Part shown: piece after piece, positions 12,496 to 33,990 of the stretch
Layout: each line of letters starts with the position of its first letter
Position numbering within the stretch: the stretch's first letter is position 1
Assembly (NCBI RefSeq): GCF_900108065.1
Contig: NZ_FNVQ01000001.1
Span: 1,302,001 to 1,366,000, forward strand
DNA from: Marinobacterium lutimaris
Lineage (GTDB): Bacteria > Pseudomonadota > Gammaproteobacteria > Pseudomonadales > Balneatricaceae
Reading direction: 5' to 3'
Length of the DNA stretch: 64,000 bases
Made by a program: the position numbers and the translations under genes
Notes under the pieces: generated by a model
Seen by the model: only the letters and a program-made list of their open reading frames with translations
What the model was told of the DNA's origin: nothing
The model's database searches: none

Positions 12496-12502
12496 AAGTA
12501 CT

Positions 12503-12579
12503 AATTTGTGAAAAAGTGTAAGACATTGATTTGGTTGATATTTCCATACTTTCACACTTTTAACGATTTTTCACAAATT
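12503..12579. repeat. Nested inverted repeats in the AT-rich left end
   Basis: AATTTGTGAAAAA (12,503-12,515) is repeated in inverted form as TTTTTCACAAATT (12,567-12,579). Inside, AAAAGTGT (12,512-12,519) faces ACACTTTT (12,554-12,561). They lie 16 bp inside the island edge and run through the stop codon of the last cargo gene. They could be arm-type binding sites for the Gin proteins, or a two-way terminator. Confidence 0.6.
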
Positions 12580-13352: not shown

Positions 13353-13370
13353 AATAACCACCGAAAATGA

Positions 13371-13399
13371 GCGTTATAGTCCGTGGAACTATAAACGCC
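13371..13399. promoter_or_regulatory. Operator 1 of the divergent HTH promoter (controller-box-like)
   Basis: TTATAGT (13,374-13,380) and ACTATAA (13,388-13,394) form perfect 7-bp inverted arms separated by 7 bp; GCGT and ACGC extend the dyad. TATAGTCCGTG closely resembles operator half-sites described for restriction-modification controller proteins such as C.Esp1396I. It lies between two divergent starts. Confidence 0.65.
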
Positions 13400-13404
13400 T
13401 AATG

Positions 13405-13437
13405 ATGATAGTTCTACCTTTTGGGTAGAACTATCAT
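13405..13437. promoter_or_regulatory. Operator 2, a 14-bp perfect palindrome over the HTH start codon
   Basis: ATGATAGTTCTACC (13,405-13,418) and GGTAGAACTATCAT (13,424-13,437) are perfect inverted arms around a 5-bp spacer. The right arm contains the AT of the HTH gene's ATG (13,436-13,438). Bound protein would block its own transcription, and in RNA the hairpin would hide the start codon. Half-site ATAGT is shared with operator 1. Confidence 0.7.
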
Positions 13438-13645
13438 GCGTGATGAGCGTTTGGTTGCTTTCGGGCAGCGTGTAAGAGCACTTAGGAAGGAAAAAGGCCT
13501 CTCACAGGAGGCCTTAGCGGCACTAGCTGATATCGATAGGAGCTATATGGGCCATATCGAACGTGGCGAGAAAAACATCACTCTCACAAAAATTTATCAA
13601 ATAGCTGATGCTTTATGTATTTCTGTTACTGAGCTTTTTAATTAG
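13436..13645 (+). CDS. XRE-family HTH regulator, controller (C) protein-like
   Basis: A 69-residue single-domain HTH protein. It reads FGQRVRALRKEKGLSQEALA, then DIDRSYMGHIERGEKNITL and IYQIADALCISVTELFN. This is the size and pattern of controller proteins of restriction-modification systems (SYMGHIERGEKN is typical of them). The ATG at 13,436 is preferred over an in-frame TTG at 13,421, because the family starts just before RVRALR. The double operator in front implies autoregulation: activation when operator 1 is filled and repression when operator 2 is. It is convergent with the ATPase-nuclease gene (9 bp between stops) and divergent from an unknown gene. No type II enzyme is next to it, which is odd for a C protein. 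Confidence 0.85.
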   Translation: MRDERLVAFGQRVRALRKEKGLSQEALAALADIDRSYMGHIERGEKNITLTKIYQIADALCISVTELFN

Positions 13646-13654
13646 ATTTGAATA

Positions 13655-15781: not shown

Positions 15782-15820
15782 AAAAATTCACCAATTTAAT
15801 CATTACCGAGCTCCTTTCGA

Positions 15821-15842
15821 AATATAGCTTATGGGCTATATT
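15821..15842. promoter_or_regulatory. Inverted repeat between hsdS and the ATPase-nuclease gene
   Basis: AATATAGC and GCTATATT form perfect 8-bp arms around a 6-bp loop, 40 bp upstream of the ATPase-nuclease start and 10 bp past the hsdS stop. It may be an operator for the downstream gene, or it may slow read-through from hsdS. Confidence 0.4.
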
Positions 15843-15851
15843 ACAGCTTAC

Positions 15852-18720: not shown

Positions 18721-21700
18721 GTACGTGCTCCGGTACTAAATTCTTTCAGGTATTCGCCGACAACCAGATGATTGATATAGCGAGAGGCGTCGGCATTGAG
18801 TTGTATTTTTTGCTCACCTTTGAAGCGCCTGATCACTAAAGGCATCATCTGGCGTTCAAAGTAGCTTTCGTTGTCCAGTATCTGGCTGTTGTTCAGTACC
18901 TGCTCATCGGCGTCCTGCTTTACTCCGGTAAGGGCTTCGAAGATCTTGCGCTCTGACTCACTGATGCCGCCACGTTCTTGCAGGCGTTTGTGGATGCGGG
19001 TGTATTTAGCATCGCCATGGTATTTTTGGCGAAGCTGGTTGTTCTCGCGATTCAGCTCTCTGACGCGCTCGTGGATCTTGTTGAGCGCATCGATGTTGGC
19101 CACCATTTCATCCTGGGTGACTTCGCTGAGATTCTTTTTCTTGAAGAGCCTTTCCAGCTCCTCTTTTAGAGTAACGAACTTGGGGTCTTGCTGATCAAAA
19201 TTATTGGCCAAGGCTTCGCGGGTTTGGCGTAAGGTGTTTTTCAGTTTGTCGGCCAGCACCAGTTCTTCTTCGCCCACCTTGATGAATTTAAAGATGACAT
19301 CCTCAAGGGCCACATTCAGTAAATTGTCTGTATCCGTGCCTTGTTCGATGCTCTCCTTGAGGTTGAGCAGATCCAGGTGGTTAGAGGTTTCCCGATAGAG
19401 GATGTTCAGTTTCGCGAAGTCCAGCTCATCTAGGATGCTGTACTCACCTTGCAGGCGGATGAGGTTGTAGAGGCTTTTCGCATCGCCCAGTGCTTTCTTC
19501 AGAGCCAGGATGGTTTCCCTCTCCTGAATCTGGCTTATCTGGTCGGTGAATACCTCGGCATTTTCGATGTCGAAGCGGAATAGAACATCCTTGATATGCT
19601 CGATTTCCTGCTTTATTTCCTCTTGGGATTTGAACAGGTTGGAGTAGTGCTCCATTTCATCGCCGAGTTCTAATTGCAGCTCGTCAAAATAGGCTTTGTT
19701 GGTCGCGTCAAACTCCTTGCGGATGTCGGCAAAATCCACCACATAGCCGTAGCGGAAATCCCTATAGGTGCGGTTTACCCGTGTTAAGGCTTGTAGCAGG
19801 TTGTGCTTGCGGATGACTCGGCCCAGATAAATTTTCTTTAGCCTTGGAGCATCAAACCCGGTAAGCAGCATGTTGAATACGAACAGGAAGTCTATTTTCC
19901 CGGCTTTGAAGTCTTCCACCCAATCCTTACGCTCTTCCTTGGTGCCTACATCATCCAGGATCAGCGCTGAGGTTCTGACCTTGTTGTTACCTTTCTTTGC
20001 AACCTTATACTCAGATTTGTTTTCAGCCACTCTGAGTAGTTCATAAACACTGTCATTGGCTCCTTCGAGGGCTATTGTATCTGCGTATTTTTCTTTAAAG
20101 AGTGTAGACATAGCTTTGGCCTGATCTGCGCTATCGCAGATCACCATGCCGCCTATGGTGGCATCATTCAGGGCACCCCGACTTTTTTCAAAGTCGGTGA
20201 TAATGTAATCGAGCATGGGTTCGACAAAGCTCGTGTGGGCGTAGATAAGCTTGCGATCCACGTCACCCATTTTTACTTCCACTTCATCCAGGGCCTGTTG
20301 CAGCACCATCTTATAGTTGGTGGCGATCTCTTCCCGGATCAGACGCAAGGTATAGCCATCGGCAATGGAAGCGTTGTAATAGTATTTATGGATGTATTCT
20401 CCGAATAGCACTCGGGAGTTGTAATCGTCGCCTAACAGCGGCGTACCCGTGAGGCCAATTTTGATGGCATTGGTATCCGATTGGCTCAAGTTCGCCAGGA
20501 AGCTGCCCCTAGGGTTGTAGCTGCGGTGGACTTCATCCAGGAAGTACACGCGCTGGATGGCAACATCGTAGTCCCTGGTTGAGACGACATCCGGGTCGTC
20601 CTTAAACTTCTGGATGTTCACGACCGTGATTTCAGGCTTGCCGGAATGGTTGTGGATAGCCTGAGTTGCCTTAATGTCGCGGGTAAAGGCTTCACGGGAA
20701 TTAACTGTGTGCACTGTCAGGCCGCGAGCGGTGAATTCCCTCTGAGCTTGTTGTAGCAAGTCCAGTCGATCGACAATGAAGTAGAACTTGGGAATGATCT
20801 GTTGCTTCTGGAAGTAGTCAGTTAGAAAGCGCACGTTGTAGAAAGTCAGCGCTGTTTTGCCGCTGCCCTGGGTGTGCCAGATGATCCCCTTCTTAACCCC
20901 TTCATCGAGCTTTCTTTCGATAGCCTTGGTCGCGAAAAGCTGCGGGTAGCGCATGATGTGCTTTTGCAACCCGTCTGTCTCTGACACATAGGCGAGCGCG
21001 TAACGCAGGATAAACGCAAGCCGGTCTCTGTTGACCAGGGAGGTGCAAATACGGTTGGTTGGCCGGTTCGGGTCTTTATTGACTATGAATTCGGGATTAC
21101 TGCGAATGACTTCCAGGTTGTTGTCCTTTAACACCTTGAGCTCGTCATCATCCGATAGTGGCTTGAGCAGCGCCGTAAGGTTCAGAATCTCCTCCTCACG
21201 GAAGTAATTGAAGACCGGCTTCTGATAGGAGCTGCTGGCGTAGAACGCGCCCTGAACAGGTTCCGGGTCGCCGTCGTCATACTCCATATTGTTAGAGAAA
21301 ATCATGAACTGAGTGATGTTAGCAAAGCGCTTGAACTTGGGGTTCTGGAAGCGCTTGTTGATGCGATCCCGCTCCGCCAATATGCCTTCACGGTTATTCG
21401 GCTTCTTCACTTCAATAAAGACCAGCGGCATGCCGTTTATCAGCAGGGTGACGTCTGGCCTAAACTCTTCATCGCCATTCTGGCAGGTCAGCTCGGTAAC
21501 GACGTGGAAGCAGTTGTTGTCGAAGTTTTCGAAGTCGATCAGTTTGGTGTTGGAGCGGTCGCTTAGCCTTTCAAAGAAGGCGCGCCCCAGGTCTTCGTTG
21601 TCGAGCAGAAGTTTGATGTCTTCCAGGAGCCGGGAAACATCGTCCACCTCGATGCCGGGGTTGATTCGTGTGATTGCTGATGAGAACAGCTCAGGGAATA

Positions 21701-21812
21701 TGTTGGTGTCAAGATCCCAACTCTGGCCCTTGAGCGAGAGATACTGATAGCCCAGCCTCATCAGATGGAGGATGGTCGGGATTTTTACTCGGGTGTCTTC
21801 GTTAAACTTCAT
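18714..21812 (-). CDS. hsdR: Type I restriction enzyme translocase/endonuclease subunit HsdR
   Basis: A 1032-residue motor subunit. The N-terminal nuclease domain shows FRPDVTLLINGMPL followed by VFIEVKKPN, the D and ExK of the PD-(D/E)XK site (about residues 118-140). The helicase motor has Walker A HTQGSGKTALTF near 315, a DEVH box in VYFLDEVHRSYN near 430, and LLTGFDAPRLKKIYLGR (motif V/VI region) near 655. The C-terminal 350 residues are helical, as in HsdR proteins that bind HsdM. It pulls DNA past the complex and cuts at distant sites when the recognition site lacks methylation. It comes first among the hsd genes, directly after the HTH gene. No frameshift is seen. Confidence 0.95.
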   Translation of the reverse strand: MKFNEDTRVKIPTILHLMRLGYQYLSLKGQSWDLDTNIFPELFSSAITRINPGIEVDDVSRLLEDIKLLLDNEDLGRAFFERLSDRSNTKLIDFENFDNNCFHVVTELTCQNGDEEFRPDVTLLINGMPLVFIEVKKPNNREGILAERDRINKRFQNPKFKRFANITQFMIFSNNMEYDDGDPEPVQGAFYASSSYQKPVFNYFREEEILNLTALLKPLSDDDELKVLKDNNLEVIRSNPEFIVNKDPNRPTNRICTSLVNRDRLAFILRYALAYVSETDGLQKHIMRYPQLFATKAIERKLDEGVKKGIIWHTQGSGKTALTFYNVRFLTDYFQKQQIIPKFYFIVDRLDLLQQAQREFTARGLTVHTVNSREAFTRDIKATQAIHNHSGKPEITVVNIQKFKDDPDVVSTRDYDVAIQRVYFLDEVHRSYNPRGSFLANLSQSDTNAIKIGLTGTPLLGDDYNSRVLFGEYIHKYYYNASIADGYTLRLIREEIATNYKMVLQQALDEVEVKMGDVDRKLIYAHTSFVEPMLDYIITDFEKSRGALNDATIGGMVICDSADQAKAMSTLFKEKYADTIALEGANDSVYELLRVAENKSEYKVAKKGNNKVRTSALILDDVGTKEERKDWVEDFKAGKIDFLFVFNMLLTGFDAPRLKKIYLGRVIRKHNLLQALTRVNRTYRDFRYGYVVDFADIRKEFDATNKAYFDELQLELGDEMEHYSNLFKSQEEIKQEIEHIKDVLFRFDIENAEVFTDQISQIQERETILALKKALGDAKSLYNLIRLQGEYSILDELDFAKLNILYRETSNHLDLLNLKESIEQGTDTDNLLNVALEDVIFKFIKVGEEELVLADKLKNTLRQTREALANNFDQQDPKFVTLKEELERLFKKKNLSEVTQDEMVANIDALNKIHERVRELNRENNQLRQKYHGDAKYTRIHKRLQERGGISESERKIFEALTGVKQDADEQVLNNSQILDNESYFERQMMPLVIRRFKGEQKIQLNADASRYINHLVVGEYLKEFSTGARTW

Positions 21813-21827
21813 AACGTTCCCTGTCTA

Positions 21828-22028
21828 TTATTTTGTCAGTTCGAGCAGATCCCCTATCTGACATTCGAACAGCCGACATAGCTTTTCAATTGCTTCCAGA
21901 TCTACTTTCTGTGCTGTCTCTTTGTAGAGCAAGGTGACCGTGGCCCTACTCAAACCAGTAGCTCTGGCGACATCAGCTATGCGCATCTTATGCTCACCCA
22001 TCATGCGGGCAAGATGGCATCGAATCAT
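21828..22028 (-). CDS. Small Cro/CI-type HTH regulator leading the hsd operon
   Basis: A 66-residue single-domain regulator. It reads MIRCHLARMMGEHKMRIADV and ARATGLSRATVTLLYKETAQ, then LEAIEKLCRLFECQIGDLLE, the compact YozG/HTH_26 pattern. The ATG at 22,028 fits the family start; an open frame extends 17 codons upstream but does not add family sequence. It ends 15 bp before hsdR, so it is the first gene of the restriction operon. It may hold back expression until methylation is complete. A 13-bp palindrome lies 56 bp upstream as a candidate operator. Confidence 0.85.
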   Translation of the reverse strand: MIRCHLARMMGEHKMRIADVARATGLSRATVTLLYKETAQKVDLEAIEKLCRLFECQIGDLLELTK

Positions 22029-22083
22029 GCTCGTAACCTCAGGCTTTGTCGTCCCATGCAAGTTGCACAAGAATACCATATGT

Positions 22084-22096
22084 AGTGAATTTCACT
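22084..22096. promoter_or_regulatory. Palindromic operator candidate of the hsd operon
   Basis: AGTGAATTTCACT is a perfect 13-bp dyad centred at 22,090, just upstream of the HTH-hsdR-hsdM-hsdS operon. Small Cro-like proteins bind sites of this form. It is the clearest dyad in the 293-bp gap up to the HEPN gene. Confidence 0.5.
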
Positions 22097-22321
22097 CACA
22101 TTATGTAAGATGAACTTAAATTTTATACTGGTCCAATGATTCACCGACGCTCTCCCCTAGTGATGTGTAAGACTTGAGGAAGCCCAGTTTGAAACGGAAA
22201 TAAACTGATGATCCAGACTCTTGCATCGAGCGGTCTGTCAGTGATATCGATAGATACGGAGAGGCCGGTTTAAAGTGGGTACGGCCAACATGATGTAACG
22301 CCCTTAGCGAAGATACCGGTA

Positions 22322-23536
22322 ATGAGCAGCAAAGACCTTAAAGAGATACTGGAACGGCAAAAAGCCCTAAGTGACCAACTCCGGAATCCGCTGGCAGACC
22401 GGCTTGCAGAGCTGGAGTCCACGAACGTCATGCGCGCCTTCTCACAGCAATCAAATATCGCCCGGATGTTAGAGGAGCTAAACAAACCCGTTGCTTTCGA
22501 AGCATTAGAACGAGCGGCAGAGATCGCGAAAAGTCACGACTGTATACGTGACTACGGGAAAGAAGCTGAGCGTGCGACTCAATGGATTAAAGACCTGGAG
22601 GAACAAACAGCGGGCACCCGGCAGTGGCTCAAAGATTTAGAAACTCAGTACCGTCTTCCCGAACTTGATGAAGCGACACGCTTCCTGCGTGAGATCGAGA
22701 ATAACAGCGCCTTTCGTGCAACGCAGGAACTGCATAAGCATTTCGAGCAAACACAACGCGCTATGGAAGCAATGCGCTCCCCATGGCTTGATATCAATAA
22801 CAGCTTACGCTCGGTCAACGCATTCACAGAGCTACAGCTTCTCGGTCATACATTGCATTCTAACGCGCCGTCATACGGTGATACGGTATCAAATGCGCTC
22901 CGTATAGAGCTGGGCGACTGGAGAGATCAGATCACATGGCCGAACCAGATATTCACAGATCCGGTAGCGCGCTCCGATTTTTATGTAGAGCGCGGCTTCA
23001 ACGGCGATCTCGCGGATTTTCCCCCGGAAGCTTTTGAGGAAAGCCTGACGCTGGCCGGTCTTAGTCAGGATAGCACCGAAAGTCCTAGCGGTGACGCCAA
23101 TGACGATGAAGAAGGTTATCAGCGCACCAATGATGCACATGGCCAGTTGTTCCGGTTCGAAAGACAGGTCAGGGTATTCATCGCTAGCCGTATGACCGAG
23201 GCTTACGGCGAGAACTGGATCAAACAGCAGGTCCAGCCGGATATCCGTGCAAAATGGATAGACAAGCATGAAAAGGCACAAAGATGCGGGGAGCCATCTT
23301 TACCCCTGATCGCCTATGCCGACTTTACTGACTACGTGCTGGTCATCACGAAAAAAGATAACTGGAATACAGTCTTCCAGCATTATTTCATGCGCCCGGA
23401 GCTGGTCAGGGAATCTTTCCAACGGCTCCACCCGATCCGGCTCTGTACGATGCATGCACGGATCATCACGCAGGACGATGAGCTATATCTCCGTGCAGAA
23501 ACGCTCAGAATTCTGAAGGCGATGGGGCTATCCTGA
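22322..23536 (+). CDS. Coiled-coil protein with C-terminal Swt1-type HEPN domain
   Basis: A 404-residue protein. Residues 1-170 are helical and coiled-coil-like, rich in Glu, Arg and Leu. A variable acidic linker follows (about 255-270). The last 130 residues resemble the Swt1-type HEPN domain: FRFERQVRVFIASRMTEAYG, the helix after ENWIKQQVQPDIRAKW, then DFTDYVLVITKKDNWNTVF, and the motif RLCTMH near residue 373. R-X4-H is the catalytic pattern of HEPN ribonucleases, although the usual Asn after Arg is missing here. HEPN proteins often act as RNA-cutting toxins in phage defence. It is divergent from the restriction operon. Defence function is inferred from fold and neighbourhood. Confidence 0.65.
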   Translation: MSSKDLKEILERQKALSDQLRNPLADRLAELESTNVMRAFSQQSNIARMLEELNKPVAFEALERAAEIAKSHDCIRDYGKEAERATQWIKDLEEQTAGTRQWLKDLETQYRLPELDEATRFLREIENNSAFRATQELHKHFEQTQRAMEAMRSPWLDINNSLRSVNAFTELQLLGHTLHSNAPSYGDTVSNALRIELGDWRDQITWPNQIFTDPVARSDFYVERGFNGDLADFPPEAFEESLTLAGLSQDSTESPSGDANDDEEGYQRTNDAHGQLFRFERQVRVFIASRMTEAYGENWIKQQVQPDIRAKWIDKHEKAQRCGEPSLPLIAYADFTDYVLVITKKDNWNTVFQHYFMRPELVRESFQRLHPIRLCTMHARIITQDDELYLRAETLRILKAMGLS

Positions 23537-23666
23537 AAGGCCTCACACCCACCGAAAGTGAACTTTCAGGCAATTTTCAGGCCTTCGATGTTACGTACGG
23601 CACGCATCGGTGCTATTTCCTAAACTTTGACTCGCCAAACCAGTGTACTAATCGGGAGGCGACGCC

Positions 23667-24140
23667 ATGAAAAAGCATACAACCGATGAGCAAAAGCTTT
23701 TTTATGCAGTCAGCATCACTGGCTGGGGCGCCTATGTGTGTTTCAACGAATATGCCTGGATCAATATCCTAGACACCGAACCATATCATGATCGTTACTA
23801 TATTTGCCTGCACGGCTCTTTAGTCACGGCGACAACAAAGAAAGTGAAAACGGGACAGAAAGTCACAGTCGCCGTTCATCCTGCGGATTTCAAGGAATTT
23901 AACGTCGATCGGTACGGAGTTGAGCCGATCGGCGACATGGAAATTACAACTATGGCAAATGATGAAGGCAAGAAAGAAAAAATATTAGTGTTCCGCGTAT
24001 CAGTGCCAGAAACGTCATTCAACCATATAAGGGCAGCGATGACCGGCAACCACACAGCAACAGTCAGCATGACCGGAACTGATCTCTATTACCGGAAAGG
24101 ACAGATCTTCCATCTGGCCTTTCAGAGCACGTCAGAATGA
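23667..24140 (+). CDS. Unknown island protein (157 residues)
   Basis: No family recognised. The protein is probably beta-rich, with many Val/Thr/Tyr strands such as GQKVTVAVHPADFKEF and NHTATVSMTGTDLYY. The start ATG at 23,667 has GGGAGGCGACGCC just before it, a strong ribosome site. It follows the HEPN gene by 130 bp; that gap holds a dyad (GAAAGT-GA-ACTTTC at 23,554-23,567) that could be a weak terminator. Two Trp and several Tyr at the N-terminus (WGAYVCFNEYAWINI) hint at a small ligand- or protein-binding domain. It may be an immunity or accessory protein for the HEPN gene, but only position supports this. Confidence 0.65.
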   Translation: MKKHTTDEQKLFYAVSITGWGAYVCFNEYAWINILDTEPYHDRYYICLHGSLVTATTKKVKTGQKVTVAVHPADFKEFNVDRYGVEPIGDMEITTMANDEGKKEKILVFRVSVPETSFNHIRAAMTGNHTATVSMTGTDLYYRKGQIFHLAFQSTSE

Positions 24141-24181
24141 ATGTGTAACGTGATAAATAAGGCAGTCCACTTCGTTAAATA

Positions 24182-24835
24182 TCATTCGAGGCCGAAGTTC
24201 TTTTTCATATCCTCCAGCTTTTTTTGCCTCACTTTATCATAAAATTCTCTTTTGGATTTTTCTTTTAGTACTACCATTTTCTCATATTCAGAAATATAAT
24301 CTTCCAGCCAATCTCCGGGCACAAATCCTATTAGCCCACCAGTGGTATAAAACATCCCGGCTTCATCATGTACTCGAAAAATCTTGGTAGCCAATAAAAG
24401 TTCACCTTCGGCATTACGCAATATCAACTCATATGGATACCTGCTCTCCTCATTATAATCTATAAATCCTCTATCCTTTTCAATAGAGGTCAGAGAGTAG
24501 TTTTTTCCAAAGAGCGTAAAGGTCATCTCCTCTTTCTTCTCTTTTTCATTTTTCTGAGAAGATGGCTCTTCGATAGAAAATTTTCTATATTTAGGCCAAT
24601 CCTCACGTTTAAAATGTACAGGATAAGGCCGAATTTCATCCCATATACCAAGTAGCTTCTTTTCCAGATCCAGACTTTTAGCGAGCTGTCTGCGTTCTGC
24701 CACAACTTTTTCTATATCGCTTTCACTTAATACAGGAGTAGCGTCTAAAAAATCGATCTGTTCACGCAAAACCTTTCGCAAATTTTCAATAGCGGCTTTA
24801 ACTTTATCAGACGCATCATTATTGGCATTACTCAT
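24182..24835 (-). CDS. Unknown island protein with coiled-coil ends
   Basis: A 217-residue protein that I do not recognise. The first 80 residues form charged helices (KVKAAIENLRKVLREQIDFL). A middle part of about 75 residues looks like a small beta domain (FTLFGKNYSLTS to FYTTGGLIGFVPGDWLEDYI). The last 35 residues are again a highly charged helix. No signal peptide or membrane segment is seen. AT-rich. Convergent with the 157-residue gene (41 bp apart) and followed upstream on its own strand by the small membrane protein gene, 43 bp away, so the two may be co-transcribed. Confidence 0.65.
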   Translation of the reverse strand: MSNANNDASDKVKAAIENLRKVLREQIDFLDATPVLSESDIEKVVAERRQLAKSLDLEKKLLGIWDEIRPYPVHFKREDWPKYRKFSIEEPSSQKNEKEKKEEMTFTLFGKNYSLTSIEKDRGFIDYNEESRYPYELILRNAEGELLLATKIFRVHDEAGMFYTTGGLIGFVPGDWLEDYISEYEKMVVLKEKSKREFYDKVRQKKLEDMKKNFGLE

Positions 24836-24878
24836 AGGGAACCCGTCCGCTTATTCCGATTTATATTAATCCTGAATT

Positions 24879-25229
24879 TCACCGATAAATTTTTCTGTTT
24901 TTACCACAGGCAAGGCAATGATAGTACGGCCCGTAGCGGCCACTACGCTCGGATACAATTCCTCCACAGCCGTCACAGCTTTCAGCATTCCCGTGGTACC
25001 ACTGCCACAGGTTAAAGCTCTGGTACAAGGCAGAGAGCACTCCCAATGCAAGCAGCGCAAGGTAAGCCCAACGGTTAAAGGTTTCGATAGTCACGGCCAG
25101 TGCCGCCAGCATTGAAGAGTCGGCTAGTCGGTCCGGTAGCCAGGTGCCAAAGATCAAACGGACAACTACAGCACCGATAATGAAAAGCAAGGGAAACGCA
25201 TATACGCGCAGCAGCATCATATTTCCCAT
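24879..25229 (-). CDS. Small membrane protein with a topoisomerase-like zinc ribbon
   Basis: A 116-residue protein with two hydrophobic helices (about 5-25 and 50-70) and a C-terminal four-cysteine motif: CDGCGG near residue 86 and CLACG near residue 106. Between them lies SERSGRYGPYYH. The spacing and the R-GRYG-x-Y pattern resemble the zinc ribbons found at the C-terminus of type IA topoisomerases, but here the ribbon is tied to the membrane. It lies 207 bp downstream of the island topB on the same strand. The island TopB itself shows no such cysteines at its end. Function unknown; a nucleic-acid-binding role is only suggested by the ribbon. Confidence 0.65.
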   Translation of the reverse strand: MGNMMLLRVYAFPLLFIIGAVVVRLIFGTWLPDRLADSSMLAALAVTIETFNRWAYLALLALGVLSALYQSFNLWQWYHGNAESCDGCGGIVSERSGRYGPYYHCLACGKNRKIYR

Positions 25230-25436
25230 ACGACCTCCTGTCAGATGTTCCGTGGTTGATGCAATCTTGATCAGCTTATAGGACTCTTATCTGGAAAATA
25301 TTTCAATAGATTAGGAATATTAGTCAGGTAGAGTTCTTGAACGGCTACGACGACAGAGCTGCACAAAACAACCCAATCAGTAGCATACGAGTATGCAACT
25401 ATAAGCCAAACTCATCCTCAACTGACTACTGGCACT

Positions 25437-27380
25437 CTACACCAAGAGGTTTTTGGACTTTGCGCCACGACTGGGTCTTTTCGATTTTATCTTCCTTTGA
25501 ACCTTCTTCTTACCCATGCCCCGCAAACCAGAGAAATTCTGGCTTTCAACCTCACCAATCAATGCCCTAAGGCCCTCGGTCAGAGGCTGCATGAAGTGCC
25601 CATAGCGCATCCGCTTCTCACTGATCGCCTCCAGCTGGGACTCCCAATGTGCGGTCATATCAGGAACGACCATCCTCTCCGGCAAACTATTCACGAGCTG
25701 CCTTCCGATCTCAGTTGAATGGATCTCTTTGCCTTTCTTGGTCAGAAACTGACGTTTGAACAACAGCTCGATGATCCCGGCACGAGTGGCCTCCGTCCCT
25801 AGACCGTCTGTATCTCTCAGAACTTTCTTGATCTCCTGGTCTGATACAAATCGAGCAATGCCTGTCATGGCAGCCAGCAGGGTTGCATCCGTAAAGCGCT
25901 TCGGCGGGCTAGTCCGCTTCTCGTCCAGCCGCCCTTCAGTGCAGGCTACAGAATCACCCGTTTTGACATTCGGCAATGCTACTGACAAGAACTCGCCATC
26001 TTGCTTTTCACTTCTCTGGGGCGGCAATAGAGCTTTCCAACCATCGGAAATGACAGACTTCTGCTTAGCGATAAACAAGCCGCCTTCAACCTCACTATCA
26101 ATCTGATGCTCTGCATATTCAAAGGGTGGATAGAACTGCATCAGGTACTGCCGGGCAACAAGTTCGTAGATATTCTTCTCATCCTGTGACAGCCGATCAG
26201 AAGGCATTGACCTGGATGTCGGAATGATGGCGTGGTGCGCACCCACTTTGGAGTCATTCCATGCTTTGCTCCTCAATCCGAGGTCAGCGTTATTTACGGC
26301 ATCAGCAAGCGTCGTTGTAGTTTTGGCAATCGACTGTGTTACGGTTTTACGCTCGTCATAGTGGCCGTTTGGCAGATAACGACAATCAGACCGTGGGTAA
26401 GTGATCAGCTTGTGACGCTCATATAACTGCTGGCATATATCTAAGGTCTTTTGAGCGTTAAGGTTGAAGCGTTTCGACGCATCAATCTGCAGAGCAGACA
26501 GGTTGTAGGGCAAGGGCGCAGGCTGTTTTTTCTTGTCACGTTTAACAGCTTTGATGCTGCCGTTTTTCCCCCTCACTTTATCTAGCACGACTTCTGCAAG
26601 CTTTCGTGAGAGCACACGGCCCTCTTCATCCATGTAAGGCTCGCACGCAGCGCTTGGTTTCCACTTTGCGATAAAGGACTCACCCGCTTGTGTTTGAAGC
26701 GTGATGAACACCTCATAGAAGGGCTTGGAGACGAAATTTTCTATTTCCTGGTCACGGTGTACTACCAAGCCCAAAACAGGTGTCTGTACACGCCCAATCG
26801 ACAAAACGCCGTTATAGCCAGCACTTTGCCCTAGCAGGGTGCATAGCCGGGTCATATTGATACCGTACAACCAGTCCGCTCTGGCTCTTGCCAAGGCCGA
26901 TGTCGCTAACGGAATGAAATCTGTGTTCTTGCGTAGGTCATTCAACGCTTTTTTAATCGCAGCGGGGTTCATGTCGTTGACGAGACAGCGCAGCGTAGAT
27001 TCACGCTTCGCTTTACTGACGCCTGAGTAGTTAATCACTTCATCAACGAGAACCTGACCGACCCGGTCAGGGTCACCCATATTTACAAGCTGATCAGCTT
27101 CTTTGATGAGCTTCTTGACTGTATTGAACTGCTTTCGTGTTTGGCTTTTGACTTCCTGCTTCCACTCGGTGGGGATGATCGGCAAATGCTCCCTTCTCCA
27201 CTTTTTGTACTCAGGGTCATAAGCCTCTGGTTCAGCCTGTTCCAGAAGGTGGCCAATGCACCAGGTCACAACATCGCCGTTAGCAACCTTGATAAAACCA
27301 TCACCCTTTTGATGAGGCTTAGGGAGCACATCAGCAACTGCACGACCGACACTTGGTTTCTCGGCAATGTACAAAATCAA
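25437..27380 (-). CDS. topB: Island-encoded DNA topoisomerase III (E107V variant)
   Basis: A complete 647-residue TopB. It starts [20 protein letters not shown], with the TOPRIM Glu at position 7. The active-site tyrosine lies in LITYPRSDCRYLPNGHY, and RFTDATLLAAMTGIARFVSD and DGLGTEATRAGIIELLFKR are family motifs. TopB relaxes and decatenates DNA by cutting one strand. At residues 103-107 it reads DPDRV where TopB proteins, including the broken host copy, have DPDRE: the third acidic residue of the DxDxE triad is Val (codon GTC). Host and island proteins are clearly homologous but diverged. It overlaps ginD by 4 bp, so it is the fifth gene of the recombinase operon. With the host copy broken it is the only intact topB in this window. 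Confidence 0.95.
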   Translation of the reverse strand: MILYIAEKPSVGRAVADVLPKPHQKGDGFIKVANGDVVTWCIGHLLEQAEPEAYDPEYKKWRREHLPIIPTEWKQEVKSQTRKQFNTVKKLIKEADQLVNMGDPDRVGQVLVDEVINYSGVSKAKRESTLRCLVNDMNPAAIKKALNDLRKNTDFIPLATSALARARADWLYGINMTRLCTLLGQSAGYNGVLSIGRVQTPVLGLVVHRDQEIENFVSKPFYEVFITLQTQAGESFIAKWKPSAACEPYMDEEGRVLSRKLAEVVLDKVRGKNGSIKAVKRDKKKQPAPLPYNLSALQIDASKRFNLNAQKTLDICQQLYERHKLITYPRSDCRYLPNGHYDERKTVTQSIAKTTTTLADAVNNADLGLRSKAWNDSKVGAHHAIIPTSRSMPSDRLSQDEKNIYELVARQYLMQFYPPFEYAEHQIDSEVEGGLFIAKQKSVISDGWKALLPPQRSEKQDGEFLSVALPNVKTGDSVACTEGRLDEKRTSPPKRFTDATLLAAMTGIARFVSDQEIKKVLRDTDGLGTEATRAGIIELLFKRQFLTKKGKEIHSTEIGRQLVNSLPERMVVPDMTAHWESQLEAISEKRMRYGHFMQPLTEGLRALIGEVESQNFSGLRGMGKKKVQRKIKSKRPSRGAKSKNLLV

Positions 27381-27853
27381 CTCTTTTTACCTCGGTCCAG
27401 CTCTACTACCTTCACTTTTTTCACCTCAGTCTCAAGCGCATCAATCCTTTCAAGCGCCTCGTAAAGGGAAAACTCCAAATTCGCATTACGCGCTACCACC
27501 TGATCACAGAATTTCTTGATTTCGTCACGCTGCGACCTGTAACGCTCTTTCAACTCACGTTCTTTGTCTCTTTGAGCCCTGAGCTTATCTATAGATGTCT
27601 TGTTCGAGTTAGACGAATAGCCAGATTTCTGTGACTTGTGCTTTTCTATTTCATTCCTGGCTTTATCAACAAATTCAGCGTAGTAATAGATACCACCTGA
27701 ACTAAGCCCTGCTTCTTTATTTATGCGGCTTAGGCTAATTTTTCCGTCATTTGGTGTCCGATCTGGCTTTCCATTTATCAATCGCTCCAGAGCAGATTCC
27801 AGACGTTGGACTGTAATATTGCCTCTTTCTGATAAGCCCACTTCGCTACTCAT
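27377..27853 (-). CDS. ginD: GinD-like small coiled-coil recombination protein
   Basis: A 158-residue protein. The N-terminal half has a helix-turn-helix-like part (SLSRINKEAGLSSGGIYYY, about residues 43-61). The C-terminal half is a long charged coiled coil (LRAQRDKERELKERYRSQRD and FSLYEALERIDALETEVKKV). It corresponds in size, place and shape to GinD of GInt elements and to TnpC of Tn554-like elements, which are needed for or steer recombination. Overlaps ginC by 4 bp and topB by 4 bp. The assignment rests on operon position and architecture more than on sequence. Confidence 0.75.
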   Translation of the reverse strand: MSSEVGLSERGNITVQRLESALERLINGKPDRTPNDGKISLSRINKEAGLSSGGIYYYAEFVDKARNEIEKHKSQKSGYSSNSNKTSIDKLRAQRDKERELKERYRSQRDEIKKFCDQVVARNANLEFSLYEALERIDALETEVKKVKVVELDRGKKS

Positions 27854-29724
27854 ATATTAAATTCCTTTTCATTAAATATTTCGTAGTCGATACTGTGTTC
27901 AGAAAGAACTTTTTCGATAGATCTGATCTCATAATATATTTTTGAGATCACATTGGGCATATCAATACCGCTTGCCACCAAAGAATTATATTTAGCAATC
28001 AATTTTTCTTTTATTGGTATTAAAGATCTAGCCTTTTCTATAGTTACTACCTTGTATTGACAAACAGTCATATCGCAAATTCTATCACAACTTGGATTGG
28101 TGCAATATCCACCAGGATGTTCGACAATAGATAGGCGCCCTTCCTCTATCTGTTTCAGAATTTCTTCTTTACTAAGATATATTGTTGAGTCACCTTCAGC
28201 ACGGAGATTTTTAATCCTTCTCCCTTCTGGACCCGCCAATGTTTCTGCCTCATTGTAAATATGATATAAAATATCCGCAGTATAATTTTTATTTTCTCCC
28301 GCTATTTCATCTTGCAAGTCAGAATCGATCATCATGTCGAAATAAGAAGCAATATTTGCCTGATTAGAATACCAGGAAGTCATTGCTATATTCATATGTT
28401 TAAACTGATGCTTTATATCTAATAACGATGCTAATTTATTACGAACCAAGTAGACCGCAAATGTACGACGGAAGCAATGAGGGTGGACTTCTAGTATATC
28501 TCCAACCTTAAGATCACCTCTTCGGGTAGGATTCAAAAGGTCGAACTCTTTTACATCATCAAAGCTTGCTCGGTAGCCTACCGAGTACACAAATGTTTTA
28601 AGAGATCCGGACATAGACTGCTTACCCGCCCTTGGCTTGTATCCACCAAGATAAGGTAGAGTTAGAAATAGGCTATTAACATCTCGTAGATACTTATTAC
28701 GCTCGTCACGATGACGAATAGCATTTATCTTGCATTTCCAACCCTCACGAGCAAATTTAAAAGCATCCCAAAGTAACTCAATTGCTTTCTTAGTAATTGC
28801 TACAGTCACCCAAGACGTCTTTCTCTCAACGCCTCCAACATTGGGCTTGGTATGAATACCATTGAGAACGGATACTGTAATACCTGCATACTTCTTCTCT
28901 TGGTATGAATCGAGTCCAAAAGACTTAATTTCACCATCTCTGCACCCTGTAAAAGCAGCAATAACTATATAGCATGCACCTCTCAGCTTTGATAACCAAT
29001 AGCCACCATAATCAAAATCAACATCTAGCCCTTTCAAAGAGTTTTTTATCTTTTTAATGGCATATTTTCTTCGCGTAAGATTACTAGAATACCTATTTGT
29101 TTCTATTATATCCTTATACTCATTTGTGAATTCATTATATGCCTCAGATATTTCATGTCTAAATGGATGTAATCTTTCAACAAGTTCAATCGCATTTTTG
29201 TAGTATGCTGATGCGATTTTTTCCGGCAGGCAAACCGCTTGAGAAACAGCATCACCATTTGGTGCCAAGTATATGGAAAGTTTTTCAAAGTTATCTATGC
29301 TCCGTTTTATAAATCCTGCTTTTTGAGCATGTGAAAAAAAGATAAGGTGATTCTTCCAAGTCTTATATTTTAACTTTCTATTCTTGGCCTCTTGCAAGAA
29401 AAGCCTATAGTTTCGATCATTATCAATGAACCCATAGTCATCACCACCACAACCCTTAATACAATGTTCAAAAATAGAAGCGCCTGAAAGTAAATTCTCT
29501 ATTGCGCTTTTCTTTGATTTTAGGTTTATATCATTTATCACCTGAAAAACTATTTCTTTAGCACTGGATTTAAACTTACCAGAAAGCATAGTAAATGAAG
29601 CTGTAAAATCTATAGACCACAATACCCACTTATCTTCTGAGTAATAACTGTAAGGATTACCTTCAGTATCAAATGACACTGCCACGTCCTCACTGAAACC
29701 ATCTACTTTAAGTGCTTCATCCAT
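27850..29724 (-). CDS. ginC: GinC-like tyrosine recombinase
   Basis: A 624-residue large integrase. The C-terminal catalytic domain keeps the classic residues: Arg I in AAFTGCRDGEIKSF near residue 266, His-x-x-Arg in VHPHCFRRTFAVYL near 415, a His in HQFKHMNIAMTSW, and the nucleophilic Tyr in SWYSNQAN near 450. A Cys-rich patch follows (CTNPSCDRICDMTVC, near residue 550), possibly a small metal site. Beyond this the C-terminal 50 residues are helical. It starts at an ATG sharing one base with the ginB stop (TGATG). It should cut and rejoin DNA at the island ends. Confidence 0.85.
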   Translation of the reverse strand: MDEALKVDGFSEDVAVSFDTEGNPYSYYSEDKWVLWSIDFTASFTMLSGKFKSSAKEIVFQVINDINLKSKKSAIENLLSGASIFEHCIKGCGGDDYGFIDNDRNYRLFLQEAKNRKLKYKTWKNHLIFFSHAQKAGFIKRSIDNFEKLSIYLAPNGDAVSQAVCLPEKIASAYYKNAIELVERLHPFRHEISEAYNEFTNEYKDIIETNRYSSNLTRRKYAIKKIKNSLKGLDVDFDYGGYWLSKLRGACYIVIAAFTGCRDGEIKSFGLDSYQEKKYAGITVSVLNGIHTKPNVGGVERKTSWVTVAITKKAIELLWDAFKFAREGWKCKINAIRHRDERNKYLRDVNSLFLTLPYLGGYKPRAGKQSMSGSLKTFVYSVGYRASFDDVKEFDLLNPTRRGDLKVGDILEVHPHCFRRTFAVYLVRNKLASLLDIKHQFKHMNIAMTSWYSNQANIASYFDMMIDSDLQDEIAGENKNYTADILYHIYNEAETLAGPEGRRIKNLRAEGDSTIYLSKEEILKQIEEGRLSIVEHPGGYCTNPSCDRICDMTVCQYKVVTIEKARSLIPIKEKLIAKYNSLVASGIDMPNVISKIYYEIRSIEKVLSEHSIDYEIFNEKEFNI

Positions 29725-31508
29725 CAGTATGCACCTAGTAGAATATCAATATCTTCTATATCACTCCAAAGCGGATGCGGATCGTCCATATATTTCATAT
29801 AAGCCTCATCATAAACTGCTTTATGAGCTGACTTTATTTTATCCATAATAACCTGGAGAGTATTGTAGACTCTACCCAATAAGCTGGTCGGTTTGGAGTT
29901 AACTGCTGGTCTATTCATGGACTCCAAAATCACATCATTGAAGGATAGCAATAGCCATACATCATCTACTTCCGCTACAACAGCATGATGTATACAGCCA
30001 AAACATTCCAAAAACTTATGACAAGCAACAAGCTCATCTTTGCTAGAAAGACCTTCCTTACGGAGCGCATTTTTTATTTTTATAGCCTTTTCTTCGAAGG
30101 CTCCACCACATCTCAAACCATTTGAAAGCTTTTTGAAGTTATTGCCTATATCACTCTCTTTGACGGGATCAGCAAAGATGAATGAGCTCTCTTCTACTGC
30201 TCTATCTAATGGCTTTCCTAACGCTGTTTGTTCTCGTACGTACAAAGCAGACGCTAACGAAAACTCAACAGATACTGAATCACCATCAGCATAGTGTTTT
30301 CCTGCAGTTTCTGCCGAATTATTTAACCCTTGAGCTACCATAAAGATACTTCCAGTAGCTCTCATAATAAGTGTTGCCTTAGTCTTCCTAAAACGCTGAC
30401 TACTTAATGCCGGGATTCCATAATTAACAATAAATTTATTTATTTTGCTAATTTCCGAGCTTGTCATTTTTGAAGGAATATCATTAATTATATTCGAAAA
30501 CAAATAACCATCTTCATATGAATTTAGCTTTTTGCTTATCTCTACCCATCGTTCGAAAAATGCTTTTGATCGATTCGTGAATCCAATGCTGACTTCGTTT
30601 TTCTTTCCTGCCTGACGTCCTTTAATAGTATTTAGTTTATACAGTCTTCGCATAACATCACTGAATGGATTTTCAGTTAAATCCGATATCTTTAAATCTA
30701 GCAGTGGGTTTGAATTAACACCAGTATAAAAACAAGTTATATAATATGCCGCCCTTACTAAATCGGCCTTCCAGACGCTATTGTTGGTTCCATAGGATAC
30801 TGTTCTATTTGATATCTTCTCATCTGATATTGACCTATTCACTCCCTCTTTATTTGCCACTTCAAGTGGAAAGTGTTCTGGTGTGGTATCATTTTCCAAA
30901 TGAGCTGAATAGTTATCGTATATTATAAAAAGTGCTCTTATGATATCTTTAAGTTCATCATCAGTATATGGTACGACATTCACTGTATCTTTAGGAAAAG
31001 AAATGAAAACATTTTTGCATTCATCATATAGCTTATAGTCGAACTCTAAAATCAAAGTTTTAATTGAATTCTGTCGCGACAGAATAGTCGCCCCCTTTTT
31101 TCCCGCATTATATTCCTCAATAAGAGTTCTTACATACATTGATATCGAATCATGGCAGAATGGCTGGTCGATTCCATCATCGTCAATTATTCTAATAAAG
31201 CGGACAAGCTCATGAAATATATTTATTTTCGTTCTATTTGATTTATCCATTGAGTGGATAATGTTACATATTTTTATAGCAAATTCTTTTCTTCTGGCAT
31301 CAATAATGCCAGGCTGATTCTTTGGAATTACTGAACGTCTACCACTGATTGGTAAAACAGGACATCCTTTATATAGCAGCCTTTCAAAATCAGCCGTGCC
31401 ATGACCATCCGTAATTATCCTTTCTTTTAAATTTATATTCGTGGTGTTTGAGTATTTTGAAATTTTGGCCGATGTTGTTTTTCTCTTATCATTTTTTATA
31501 AAGGCCAT
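29724..31508 (-). CDS. ginB: GinB-like recombinase with altered active site
   Basis: A 594-residue tyrosine-recombinase-fold protein. The fold is suggested by CFYTGVNSNPLLDLKISDL near residue 260 and by LSSQRFRKTKATLIMRATGS and QGLNNSAETAGKHYADGD. In these boxes the usual Arg I (T-G-x-R) is Asn, the His of H-x-x-R is Gln, and the G-H of box III is N-N; only Arg II and the Tyr in GKHYADGD remain. It is therefore probably not a full catalyst and may be a structural partner of GinA/GinC. A Cys/His patch (ACHKFLECFGCIHH, near residue 500) resembles the one in ginC. Two bp separate it from ginA. Confidence 0.8.
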   Translation of the reverse strand: MAFIKNDKRKTTSAKISKYSNTTNINLKERIITDGHGTADFERLLYKGCPVLPISGRRSVIPKNQPGIIDARRKEFAIKICNIIHSMDKSNRTKINIFHELVRFIRIIDDDGIDQPFCHDSISMYVRTLIEEYNAGKKGATILSRQNSIKTLILEFDYKLYDECKNVFISFPKDTVNVVPYTDDELKDIIRALFIIYDNYSAHLENDTTPEHFPLEVANKEGVNRSISDEKISNRTVSYGTNNSVWKADLVRAAYYITCFYTGVNSNPLLDLKISDLTENPFSDVMRRLYKLNTIKGRQAGKKNEVSIGFTNRSKAFFERWVEISKKLNSYEDGYLFSNIINDIPSKMTSSEISKINKFIVNYGIPALSSQRFRKTKATLIMRATGSIFMVAQGLNNSAETAGKHYADGDSVSVEFSLASALYVREQTALGKPLDRAVEESSFIFADPVKESDIGNNFKKLSNGLRCGGAFEEKAIKIKNALRKEGLSSKDELVACHKFLECFGCIHHAVVAEVDDVWLLLSFNDVILESMNRPAVNSKPTSLLGRVYNTLQVIMDKIKSAHKAVYDEAYMKYMDDPHPLWSDIEDIDILLGAY

Positions 31509-31510
31509 TA

Positions 31511-32839
31511 TTATTCACCACTTTCTAAAACAATATCCAAAGCCAACTCATGCACTTCGTTTGCAGTCACGGTATGTTCACAAAGCTTAAGGTAACCAAG
31601 CAAGGTTGACCTTTGCTTATGTCCCATTACAGACTGCAAGTAATCGAGTGCTTTTCCTTCCTTAAGTCCAGAGTCCAGTAATTCCTTCAATCTCTCCACC
31701 GCATATGTGGAGCGCAAGTTATGGAACTTGTGCTTGAAGTTTGGATGCTCTGTCTTCACTGCATTTCTTATTTCTCCCCAGCGAGCATCAAGACTTTTAG
31801 ATGAATACTGACTACCACTTTGGTTCAAAAGCAAAGGAGGATTATTGCCTTCGTCAGGGTTATTTTTTTCATAAACCTTTCTGCGCTGAATGTATCTGGG
31901 CGAATTTACGTACTCATGTAGCCTATTCATCAGCTCAGAAGGAATCTCTGCTATCCTTACGGTTCCGTTTTTGGTTACGACTCCTAATCGTGGATCAAGA
32001 TTAAGACCATCTGTATTAATGAGATATTTTTTACTCAGTTGTTCAACATTAGGCTTATAGATAGAGTTTGCACGAAGAGTAACGACTTCCGAGCTTCTAA
32101 GCCCAGCATAACGACTTAATTCAACCGCTATCTGAAACTCATTTGATATCGAAACCTCTTTAAGCTCACCACCTCTATTGGAATAGCCAATGCCGAGTTC
32201 TTTGTAGTATTTTTCTACCAAGCCCCATTCCCGATAATTTATCGGCAGTAACTTACGTGACAAGCCGTTATAGCTAGTGTCATTTGGAAGCTTCAACCTC
32301 AAGTCAGTGGTGTCTACGTGAATAAACGCGTTCCGCATATACTCATGCGACCCTTGCTTACTGACTTTCACCACTTCATATTTGAATGGTGGGTTTTCAA
32401 ACGCGTGCTTGCGAGCCAGGTAGAATTTATAAAAATTAATAACTACTCCCATGTAGCTGCTTGCGGTAGAACGCGCTATCTTTCCGCTTTTATAGGCCTC
32501 ACGTAAATGTTTTCTAAAGCCATAGGTAGGCCTCAGCCTTAAGGGAACGGGCATGTCATCCCATGACATGCCAATGTCCTTCAAAAAGGTAAAGTAATGA
32601 AGCAAGGCCTGTGCTTGAGTATTAACGCTTTTCTTTCGGAGGTTGGCTTTAAGATGAATAAGCCAGATATTGGCGACTCTAATACTTGCGCCATTATCTT
32701 CGAATAGGAGGGGTAGTTTTCCTAAATTGCTGCCTGTGCCTTCGAAACGTATCGACAGTTCACCGGTAGTCGTATCGATATGGCGTTTAATCTGCTGATC
32801 TACAACGAAGTCTGGAACTTCCCAAAGTACGATACCCAC
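31511..32839 (-). CDS. ginA: GinA-like tyrosine recombinase
   Basis: A 442-residue integrase and the first gene of the gin operon. It has an N-terminal core-binding domain (about 50-190, e.g. NTQAQALLHYFTFLKDIGMS) and a C-terminal catalytic domain with Arg I in YAGLRSSEVVTLRAN (about 235), H-x-x-R in KFHNLRSTYAVERL (about 378), the box III His in VMGHKQRSTLLGYL and the Tyr in that same segment (about 416). The catalytic set is complete. The start is GTG at 32,839, preceded by AGGTG. Only about 75 bp separate it from the island edge, so its promoter overlaps the recombination site and could be changed by excision. Confidence 0.88.
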   Translation of the reverse strand: MGIVLWEVPDFVVDQQIKRHIDTTTGELSIRFEGTGSNLGKLPLLFEDNGASIRVANIWLIHLKANLRKKSVNTQAQALLHYFTFLKDIGMSWDDMPVPLRLRPTYGFRKHLREAYKSGKIARSTASSYMGVVINFYKFYLARKHAFENPPFKYEVVKVSKQGSHEYMRNAFIHVDTTDLRLKLPNDTSYNGLSRKLLPINYREWGLVEKYYKELGIGYSNRGGELKEVSISNEFQIAVELSRYAGLRSSEVVTLRANSIYKPNVEQLSKKYLINTDGLNLDPRLGVVTKNGTVRIAEIPSELMNRLHEYVNSPRYIQRRKVYEKNNPDEGNNPPLLLNQSGSQYSSKSLDARWGEIRNAVKTEHPNFKHKFHNLRSTYAVERLKELLDSGLKEGKALDYLQSVMGHKQRSTLLGYLKLCEHTVTANEVHELALDIVLESGE

Positions 32840-32883
32840 ACGTTCACCTGCGCTACAAATTTCACTATTTCATGGATTGTAAA

Positions 32884-32917
32884 CGTAACAATCGCTTTCA
32901 ATAGAAAAATCGTAACA
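32884..32917 (+). repeat. Direct CGTAACA repeats at the right end
   Basis: CGTAACA occurs at 32,884-32,890 and 32,911-32,917, 27 bp apart. The second copy is part of the terminal inverted repeat, and the first could be an accessory recombinase site. Both lie in the gap between the island edge and ginA, which also must hold the gin promoter. Confidence 0.5.
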
Positions 32918-32920
32918 GTG
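32912..32920 (-). repeat. Right imperfect terminal inverted repeat
   Basis: GTAACAGTG on the plus strand; its complement CACTGTTAC matches CACTATTAC at the left end except for one base. Two bases separate it from the right CGGTC core. Confidence 0.6.
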
Positions 32921-32922
32921 CA

Positions 32923-32927
32923 CGGTC
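32923..32927 (+). repeat. Right 5-bp direct repeat at the island junction (CGGTC)
   Basis: Second copy of the CGGTC core; on the minus strand it reads GACCG, codons Asp105-Arg106 of topB. See the copy at 12,483-12,487. Confidence 0.75.
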
Positions 32928-33239
32928 CGGGTCGCCGGCATGCACGATCTGATCGGCTTCCTTAACCAGCTTGCGCAACACGCTGAGCTGAGTGCGCACC
33001 TTGGGCCGCGGTTTCAACTGCCACTGATCCGGCACGATAGGCAGATGCTCATAACGCCATTGCTTAAATGCCGGATCATAACTTTCCGGTTCAGCCTGTT
33101 CCAGCAGATGCCCGATGCACCAGCTCACCACATCGCCGTTACCACAACGGATACAGCCATCGGCCTTGCTCTGCGGCTTAGGCAACACGGCGGCTATAGC
33201 TCGCGCAAGACTCGGTTTTTCAGCGATATAAAGTTTCAT
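32923..33239 (-). pseudogene. topB: DNA topoisomerase III, 5' fragment (disrupted by the island)
   Basis: The first 106 codons of host Top[21 protein letters not shown] through VHAGDPDR, which covers most of the TOPRIM domain. After the junction the frame reads six island codons (ALLRFFY from the last shared base on) and stops at 32,898. The ATG at 33,239 matches TopB N-termini; an upstream in-frame start would add eight residues. It overlaps the end of the fructosamine-kinase-like gene by 20 bp, so the broken message is still made if that operon is active. Its own promoter could also transcribe into the island against nothing, since gin genes run the same way. Confidence 0.93.
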
Positions 33240-33990
33240 TGAGCGCTGCCAGCCCCTCTTCACAGCCGGTCAGATATGCATCGCCGAACAGGTTGTAATG
33301 GTTAAGATAATGATACAGGTTGTAGATGGCCCGTTTCAGCGGGTAGTCATCACCGCGCGGGCTGATGGCATCATAGGCGGCATAAAACGCACCAGAGAAA
33401 CCGCCGAACATCTCGGTCATCGCCAGGTCCACATCCGGATCCGCATAGTAAACGGCGGGATCGATCAGCCAGACATTCTGCCCATTACGATCAAACAAGA
33501 CATTGCCGCCCCAAAGGTCGCCGTGCACTAGCGCTGGCCCACGGGTGGTAGCGTTGAGAAACTCCTCGACCGCCTCCCGACAGCGCTCCAGCTCAGCCAG
33601 AAAGCGATCGCGAACCGCGCTGTCGGCTATGCGCCTGATCTGAAATCCGAGACGGTAATCGAGAAAGAACCGCCCCCAGTTTTCACTCTTAATGTTGGAC
33701 TGGGGCGATAGGCCAATGAAGTTGCCGCTGGCCAGGCCATAATAGCCATGGCGCTGTGTGTGGATCTGAGCCAGGGACTCACCGAGCAGACGCATCTGCT
33801 GCTCGCTGGCTGATGCGCAATGGATCAGCTCCAGGCAGAGTCTGTCGCGCGTGATCTCCAGCCGAGCCGGTACACGCACTTTAACGATACTGGCGCGATT
33901 GAGCGCAGTCTCAAGCAGCTCAAGCCCTTTTGCCTCGCATATCAGGCTGTCTGAGCCCGGTAAGGGGTTGGTTTTGATAAAGCCTTGCAT
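33220..33990 (-). CDS. Fructosamine kinase-family protein
   Basis: A 256-residue protein of the fructosamine/ketosamine-3-kinase family (aminoglycoside-phosphotransferase fold), which phosphorylates sugar-amine adducts and so helps repair glycated proteins. The catalytic loop is [18 protein letters not shown] near residue 165, with the Asp base and Asn, and the Mg-binding motif [19 protein letters not shown] follows. Typical family length is 280-290; this one is a little short at the N-terminus, where the P-loop-like part is reduced. Its end overlaps the start of topB by 20 bp, an arrangement that places topB downstream of it in an operon. Confidence 0.85.

Follow-up and report, generated by a model that had tools for sequence, protein, structure and literature searches.

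A GInt island within topB of Marinobacterium lutimaris carries a complete topB that differs at the insertion site

Why should a genomic island that splits topB also carry a complete topB, and carry it in the same operon as its own recombinases? The question is raised by the window examined here—the whole stretch of 64,000 nucleotides of Marinobacterium lutimaris DNA that was analyzed—in which an element of the GInt type (a name synonymous with the Tn6571 family; PMC10121019) lies inside the host gene. We approached it through the anatomy of the island, its relatives in other bacteria, the codons at which carried and interrupted genes differ, and the fate of the carried copies.

The island, its operon and the interrupted gene

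The genes ginA, ginB, ginC, ginD and topB form one same-strand run whose members abut or overlap, with topB in fifth place (Table 1). The first four genes follow the ginABCD layout, i.e., three products of the recombinase type plus a small fourth one, and GinA, GinB and GinC share 22-32% identity with plasmid GInt relatives. GinA matched the Pfam Phage_integrase model with 27.0 bits, just under the cut-off of 27.1, and its residues R248, K290, H373, R376, H407 and Y416—which we take to be the tyrosine recombinase catalytic set—are invariant in five aligned sequences. At the island ends, the inverted arms GTAATAGTG and CACTGTTAC flank a 6-bp core, and the other topB GInts have near-identical arms. 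These arms are clearer than the direct repeat at the window junctions, where little more than GACCG is common to both ends (GInts are described as having imperfect repeats of 10-17 nt). The cargo between positions 15852 and 21812 resembles a type I restriction-modification set. A Pfam scan of nine window proteins yielded no intein-type endonuclease with a zinc finger, the kind associated with the yeast WHO elements discussed below.

A sequence-only reading of this DNA had described a full TopB as the fifth gene of the operon, overlapping ginD by 4 bp, and this description holds. The open reading frame begins with a TTG start codon, the Pfam families Toprim and Topoisom_bac were matched over the full length of the protein, and the NCBIfam model TIGR01056 (topB) gave 766.6 bits against a cut-off of 515.75. 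In comparison with TopB of E. coli K-12, residues E7, K8, D103, D105, Y328 and R330 are retained; among 14 positions compared, the sole difference in the island protein is the replacement of E107 by V. Metal binding by type IA TOPRIM domains is attributed to a glutamate plus a DxD pair (excerpted text of PMC7587558 and PMC6101483) and, as both are kept in the island TopB, V107 need not inactivate the enzyme. Moreover, purifying selection acts on the protein, with dN/dS values of 0.04-0.05 in four pairs and a fifth pair that was saturated. These features suggest that the island TopB is expressed and active as a topoisomerase. The overlap between the genes is likewise consistent with a promoter common to the gin recombinases and topB, and a promoter/terminator scan returned promoter-like and terminator-like matches at chance level only.

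The same reading held that insertion breaks the host topB and at once supplies a whole substitute, and here, too, the anatomy agrees: the host gene is split between codons 106 and 107, its two pieces lie in open reading frames at either end of the island, and the carried gene keeps its catalytic residues. In a congener (G371), by comparison, the topB frame stays open for 670 aa and shares 95% identity with the host 3' piece of M. lutimaris, and a tblastn match spanning residues 1-635 places the gene in one piece. Querying the M. lutimaris genome with its island TopB identified four places, namely the island gene itself, the two host pieces and a match of 28% identity that we take to be TopA. 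No second intact TopB, which would have made a replacement unnecessary, was found with this query in the assembly (5.57 Mb in 21 contigs, 99.38% complete). Additionally, the host 3' piece has a dN/dS of 0.036 against G371, i.e., selection is not relaxed, which would fit a recent insertion and need not imply loss of function.

Table 1. Coordinates of the island, its genes and junctions in the window, and of a second recombinase element found in topB of another genome (G452)
Feature	Position	Strand	Basis
Whole GInt island, ~20.4 kb, ends approximate by a few bases	12483..32922	-	Junctions vs host topB
ORF with host topB N-terminal piece (host part ~33241 down to 32922, last residues island-derived)	32898..33263	-	Homology, junction
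ORF with host topB C-terminal piece (host part from ~12487 down, first residues island-derived)	10850..12547	-	Homology, junction
Left junction: host GACCCGG, core ACCGTG, island arm CACTGTTAC	32905..32932	-	Host topB comparison
Right junction: island arm GTAATAGTG, core ACCGCG, host AAGGGC	12475..12500	-	Host topB comparison
ginA, tyrosine recombinase	31511..32839	-	Alignment; weak Phage_integrase match
ginB	29724..31508	-	Alignment with plasmid relatives
ginC	27850..29724	-	Alignment with plasmid relatives
ginD	27377..27853	-	Homology (tblastn) and position
Island topB, complete, 647 aa, V107	25437..27380	-	ORF call, Pfam/NCBIfam, K-12 comparison
Recombinase element in topB of G452, with own complete topB and Wadjet cargo	L213:1765-19001 with L214:1-13041		

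Pairing of carried and interrupted genes among GInts

An alignment of GinC with four plasmid relatives led to 69 loci in the genome collection which, together with six plasmid loci, gave a set of 75 that was searched for gin genes and TopB. Eight of them (L046-L053) contain TopB, directly 3' of ginD in every instance; the carriers are three Pantoea, two Photobacterium and one each of Pseudoalteromonas, Halomonas and an Alteromonadaceae bacterium. A host TopB N-terminal piece lies directly 5' of ginA in the five carriers with enough upstream DNA—in the remaining three, the contig starts within the operon or 77 bases ahead of it—and all eight carrier genomes contain the two host topB pieces, which in five of them share a contig with the island TopB. 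No TopB was found at the 67 other loci, not all of which are proven GInts: ginA and ginD are both present in 51 of the 75 loci, that is, in six topB carriers and 45 others. The association proposed in the sequence-only reading was thereby recovered, as a trailing topB accompanies a split host topB in 8/8 relatives and in the 3/3 E. coli genomes described below, against 0/67 other loci, and an island topB in a gin operon at some other site was seen at none of the 75 loci. Two of the eight relatives (G502 and G504) additionally possess a distant full-length TopB, with 43% and 41% identity, so that the island substitute is not the sole TopB in these genomes. At a threshold of 1e-20, GinC of M. 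lutimaris matched only its own genome among 369 genomes of the class, and at 1e-6 it matched five of the 116 genomes of the family, four of these being partial matches of 26-34%. Among viral contigs, 45 pattern matches were obtained and none was confirmed. One of the carrier loci (L048:18198-18917, in G499) also holds an extra topB C-terminal fragment, covering residues 392-629 at 60% identity and with one stop.

The arrangement extends to E. coli. With Pantoea gin DNA as the query, three of 5,426 E. coli genomes were identified (strains BR1220, HH35 and PO06021), and a query with the island topB DNA returned the same three at full coverage, with three places per record; E. coli gin DNA found no match among plasmids. 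In the annotation of all three genomes, the host topB appears as two incomplete pseudogene pieces flanking the gin genes, an intact DNA topoisomerase III gene and cargo, and a copy of ISEc52 sits between ginC and ginD in HH35 and PO06021. The host pieces of BR1220 are almost identical to topB of K-12 (299 of the first 300 bases and 1644/1644 bases of the 3' piece), hence precise excision should restore the gene. Insertion is site-specific, with the same topB codon hit in the window, the eight relatives and E. coli.

GInts with other targets were identified by comparing the DNA preceding ginA (up to 3 kb) with that following ginD (up to 10 kb) at the 51 loci having both genes, 11 of which offer less than 3 kb before or less than 3 kb after—enough of a shortfall to hide a match. 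A before/after match emerged at nine loci, comprising five topB, three cca (L054, L055 and L056) and one umuD (L065). The cca gene following ginD in L055 encodes 415 aa and matches the CCA-adding family at full length. Host cca is split in all three genomes; in G505 and G506, a single contig carries the pieces in their proper order. The host 3' piece contains one stop in G505, and that of G507 lies on a different contig and is broken by stops. In L065, host umuC is split after the SNN motif and the island brings umuD and a complete umuC, all three umuC parts being located on one contig. A complete UmuC-like gene also lies 3' of ginD in L060 (384 bits, short of the 431 that the model requires), with a umuC 3' piece further along the contig; the upstream region falls off the contig, and the genome has more umuC pieces. 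Among the loci surveyed, cca is limited to L054-L056 and umuC to L060 and L065, leaving aside a minus-strand umuC in L109, where the GinC match is only weak. Many other GInts adjoin complete genes, judging by model position in the representatives tested (gor 449/450, obg 328/329, ycgN 144/145 and rraB 129/134). Finally, two interior insertions are accompanied by no copy. In Pseudoalteromonas luteoviolacea (L058), a GInt cuts dinB at model position 108/357, at the SLDE catalytic motif (6205-6552), with no dinB copy within the next 9.6 kb; in L083, the interior of an ion-channel gene is interrupted (match to 198 of 241) and the island carries no copy of it. Copy-carrying is therefore frequent, yet not universal, among interior insertions.

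Altered target codons and resident copies

Native TopB reads GDPDREGQ at the site, the E being residue 107 in K-12 numbering, whereas the island protein reads GDPDRVGQ in eight of nine elements as well as in E. coli—nine of ten GInts in total, with L052 keeping E107. The codons around V107 vary between elements, indicating that it is the amino acid change that has been retained. Island Cca has KNKEEWALARTEKK or QNKEEWALARTEKK in 3/3 cases, and the host 3' pieces resume with EYALARTE. In L065, the island UmuC has SNNDNC against NNDGC in the host 3' piece, and the motif in L060 is SNNDGA.

An element of a second kind occurs in topB of another genome, G452 (Table 1). It splits the gene between SVGRVQ and TPVLGL, near codon 200, and its recombinase module consists of four genes encoding 805, 763, 177 and 460 aa, a Pfam integrase match being present in the last alone. 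A complete topB follows these genes, and then come other cargo, including Wadjet (JetA and JetD), and the host 3' piece. Compared with the Gin proteins of the window, the module gave weak, chance-level matches only (best E 0.03). Its carried TopB is normal around residue 107 (DPDREGQ), but reads SVGRVQSPLVG at the element's own site. This is a single case, in a genome that is 88% complete with 6% contamination, and the recombinase was detected in one of 116 genomes of the family, namely G452 itself. Among 65 TopB rows in which both motifs are readable, with two genes entered twice, the chromosomal sequences combine E with TP in 45 rows, V with TP in nine and E with SP in two; those from islands combine V with TP in eight and E with TP in one. 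The SP signature of the G452 element is common to the TopBs of G460 and G449, which belong to different genera, and the element's TopB and that of G449 share 80.6% identity. Moreover, a module of the G452 type, again of four genes, immediately precedes umuD and umuC on an IncT plasmid of Providencia huaxiensis (L252:5925-14006), where UmuC is altered at the SNNDG site and reads SNNDAS. No host umuC piece lies within the 19 kb of plasmid sequence covered, and we hence treat this locus only as a lead. The altered site coincides with the insertion site for topB, cca and umuC and, elsewhere in topB, for the unrelated G452 element; on these grounds, E107V probably makes the island copy a poor target for its own element.

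The carried gene has a long shared history with the element. Across the nine topB GInts, TopB and GinC distances correlate with r = 0.95 (0/5000 permutations as high), and those of GinC and GinD with r = 0.94 (1/5000 as high); the matching divergence of TopB and GinC indicates that TopB has descended together with the element through several host families, and was not recaptured in each host. The topB GInts form one clade, so the pairing of gene and target counts as one gain rather than many. In the TopB tree of the family, the proteins of ten genomes fall among the island ones, nine of them with V107, and the same clade (100/99 support) contains five more E107 genes from one genus along with the E107 island L052. 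For six of the ten, in three genera, the island-type topB occupies the locus where congeners have an ordinary topB. The TopB of G467 is a chimera, of host type up to residue 110 and of island type from residue 117, and that of G461 (L174), with mixed sites, was weighed as a candidate chimera. The flanks of nine of the ten resident genes, one of them very short, gave only chance-level matches to gin genes and host topB. Taken with their loci, the position of the resident island-type TopBs in the tree suggests that they are copies left behind by elements, and this may include the SP type of G460 and G449.

Interpretation and comparison with known systems

The analysis establishes the anatomy of the locus, the intact catalytic residues, the purifying selection and the exclusive pairing of the carried with the interrupted gene. 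The best explanation as a whole, to which we assign a probability of about 0.8, is that the GInt breaks topB and supplies a complete substitute that is a poorer target. The Gin recombinases would insert the island into the DNA encoding the conserved Toprim active-site motif, at codons 106/107, and thereby split the host gene, and the fifth gene of the operon would provide a whole TopB, such that the cell still has topoisomerase III. The E107V copy would then probably be a poor target for its own element and, upon decay of the element, could persist at the native locus as resident topB—a step suggested by the resident copies and the chimera.

Alternatively, V107 might be the mark of a natural, ordinary TopB lineage within the window's family, captured once by the element, and have no bearing on insertion resistance, with the resident V107 genes being vertically inherited or otherwise transferred. 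Nine chromosomal V107 TopBs do exist, no remnant of gin or host topB lies beside the eight that were tested (one on a 4.3 kb contig), and the nearest outgroups of the wider clade are chromosomal TopBs of the same family. However, the native loci that hold the resident copies differ from genus to genus and are occupied by an E107 TopB in congeners, the copies are nested among island TopBs, and one of them is a chimera whose breakpoint adjoins the insertion codon; G452 mirrors the pattern at its own site, and the cca and umuC copies are altered at theirs. We thus regard a natural lineage as an unlikely, if serious, alternative.

The functional roles considered in the sequence-only reading fared less well than its description of the locus. 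A stabilizing or addiction device, in which loss of the island is punished by loss of TopB, could draw on the stops in the host cca 3' pieces of G505 and G507, where loss would now come at a cost. Yet precise excision should rebuild the host gene, as the nearly K-12-like pieces of BR1220 illustrate for topB, such that the copy would lower the cost of insertion instead of punishing loss; a toxin is neither needed nor seen in the arrangement, and we consider this role improbable. The suggestion that TopB takes part in the recombination reaction, to which unlinking of a circular or copied-out form may be added, has its appeal: topoisomerase III unlinks DNA, and topB belongs to the recombinase operon and shares 4 bp with ginD in six of the nine elements measured. 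Against it, TopB was found at none of the other 45 loci having both ginA and ginD, and cca or umuC occupies the topB slot in other GInts. Furthermore, each of ginABCD is reported to be essential for movement in GInts described without topB (excerpted text of PMC5385486), giving no hint of a need for TopB, and such participation seems very improbable to us. GInts are also reported to catch genes from related bacteria (same excerpted text), which would be compatible with topB as passive cargo caught by chance near the target, but the fixed slot, the match between carried and interrupted gene in three families, the long co-inheritance and the purifying selection make mere chance barely credible.

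Beyond the proposed substitution of topB by a poorer target in GInts, we lean, at slightly better than even odds, towards the broader proposition that at least two unrelated recombinase modules independently became break-and-replace elements—inserting in active-site codons (of topB, cca and umuC), carrying behind the recombinase genes a complete copy altered at their own target codons, and leaving that copy as a resident gene on decay. If true, islands could land in the most conserved DNA of important genes without harm to the host, and one could predict which alleles admit insertion and which do not. Core genes could be serially replaced in place by foreign versions, misleading gene trees, and a resident TopB with V107 or an SPLVG motif would be at once the fossil of an earlier invasion and protection from a further one. 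The E. coli strains with this arrangement make activity, target choice and the cost of excision directly testable.

Among the matches listed for the open PMC literature, a scope outside which supplements and subscription journals fall, we recognized no GInt with a complete copy of its own target. The GInts described by Bardaji et al. (2017; PMC5385486) resemble the window island in the ginABCD operon, site-specific insertion and cargo placed behind the operon; the excerpted text mentions neither topB nor a topoisomerase, places insertions at gene ends, at gene starts or between genes, and includes no complete target copy. The SE elements likewise have a four-gene recombination module, for which a copy-out style of movement was proposed, but their protein clusters are distinct from those of GInts, and topB is absent from the excerpted text (PMC10214605). 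Integron-like elements in rulB, a gene of the umuC type, are similar in having three recombinase genes and inserting 123 bp into the gene; they provide a shortened alternative reading frame, rulB(2), according to the excerpted text (PMC4542609), as opposed to the complete carried copy found here. Elements that rebuild a tRNA or gene end when they insert (Islander, PMC4383910) also repair the gene that they interrupt, although they restore the gene end only, whereas the window island has a whole, diverged gene elsewhere inside it. The nearest working parallel is provided by the WHO homing elements at FBA1 of yeast, which attack a conserved gene and bring a resistant part of that gene with them, resulting in chimeric genes and decayed fragments; as presented in the excerpted text (PMC7282813), these elements belong to a eukaryote and operate through an endonuclease and DNA repair, in contrast to the recombinases of the GInt elements in this study.
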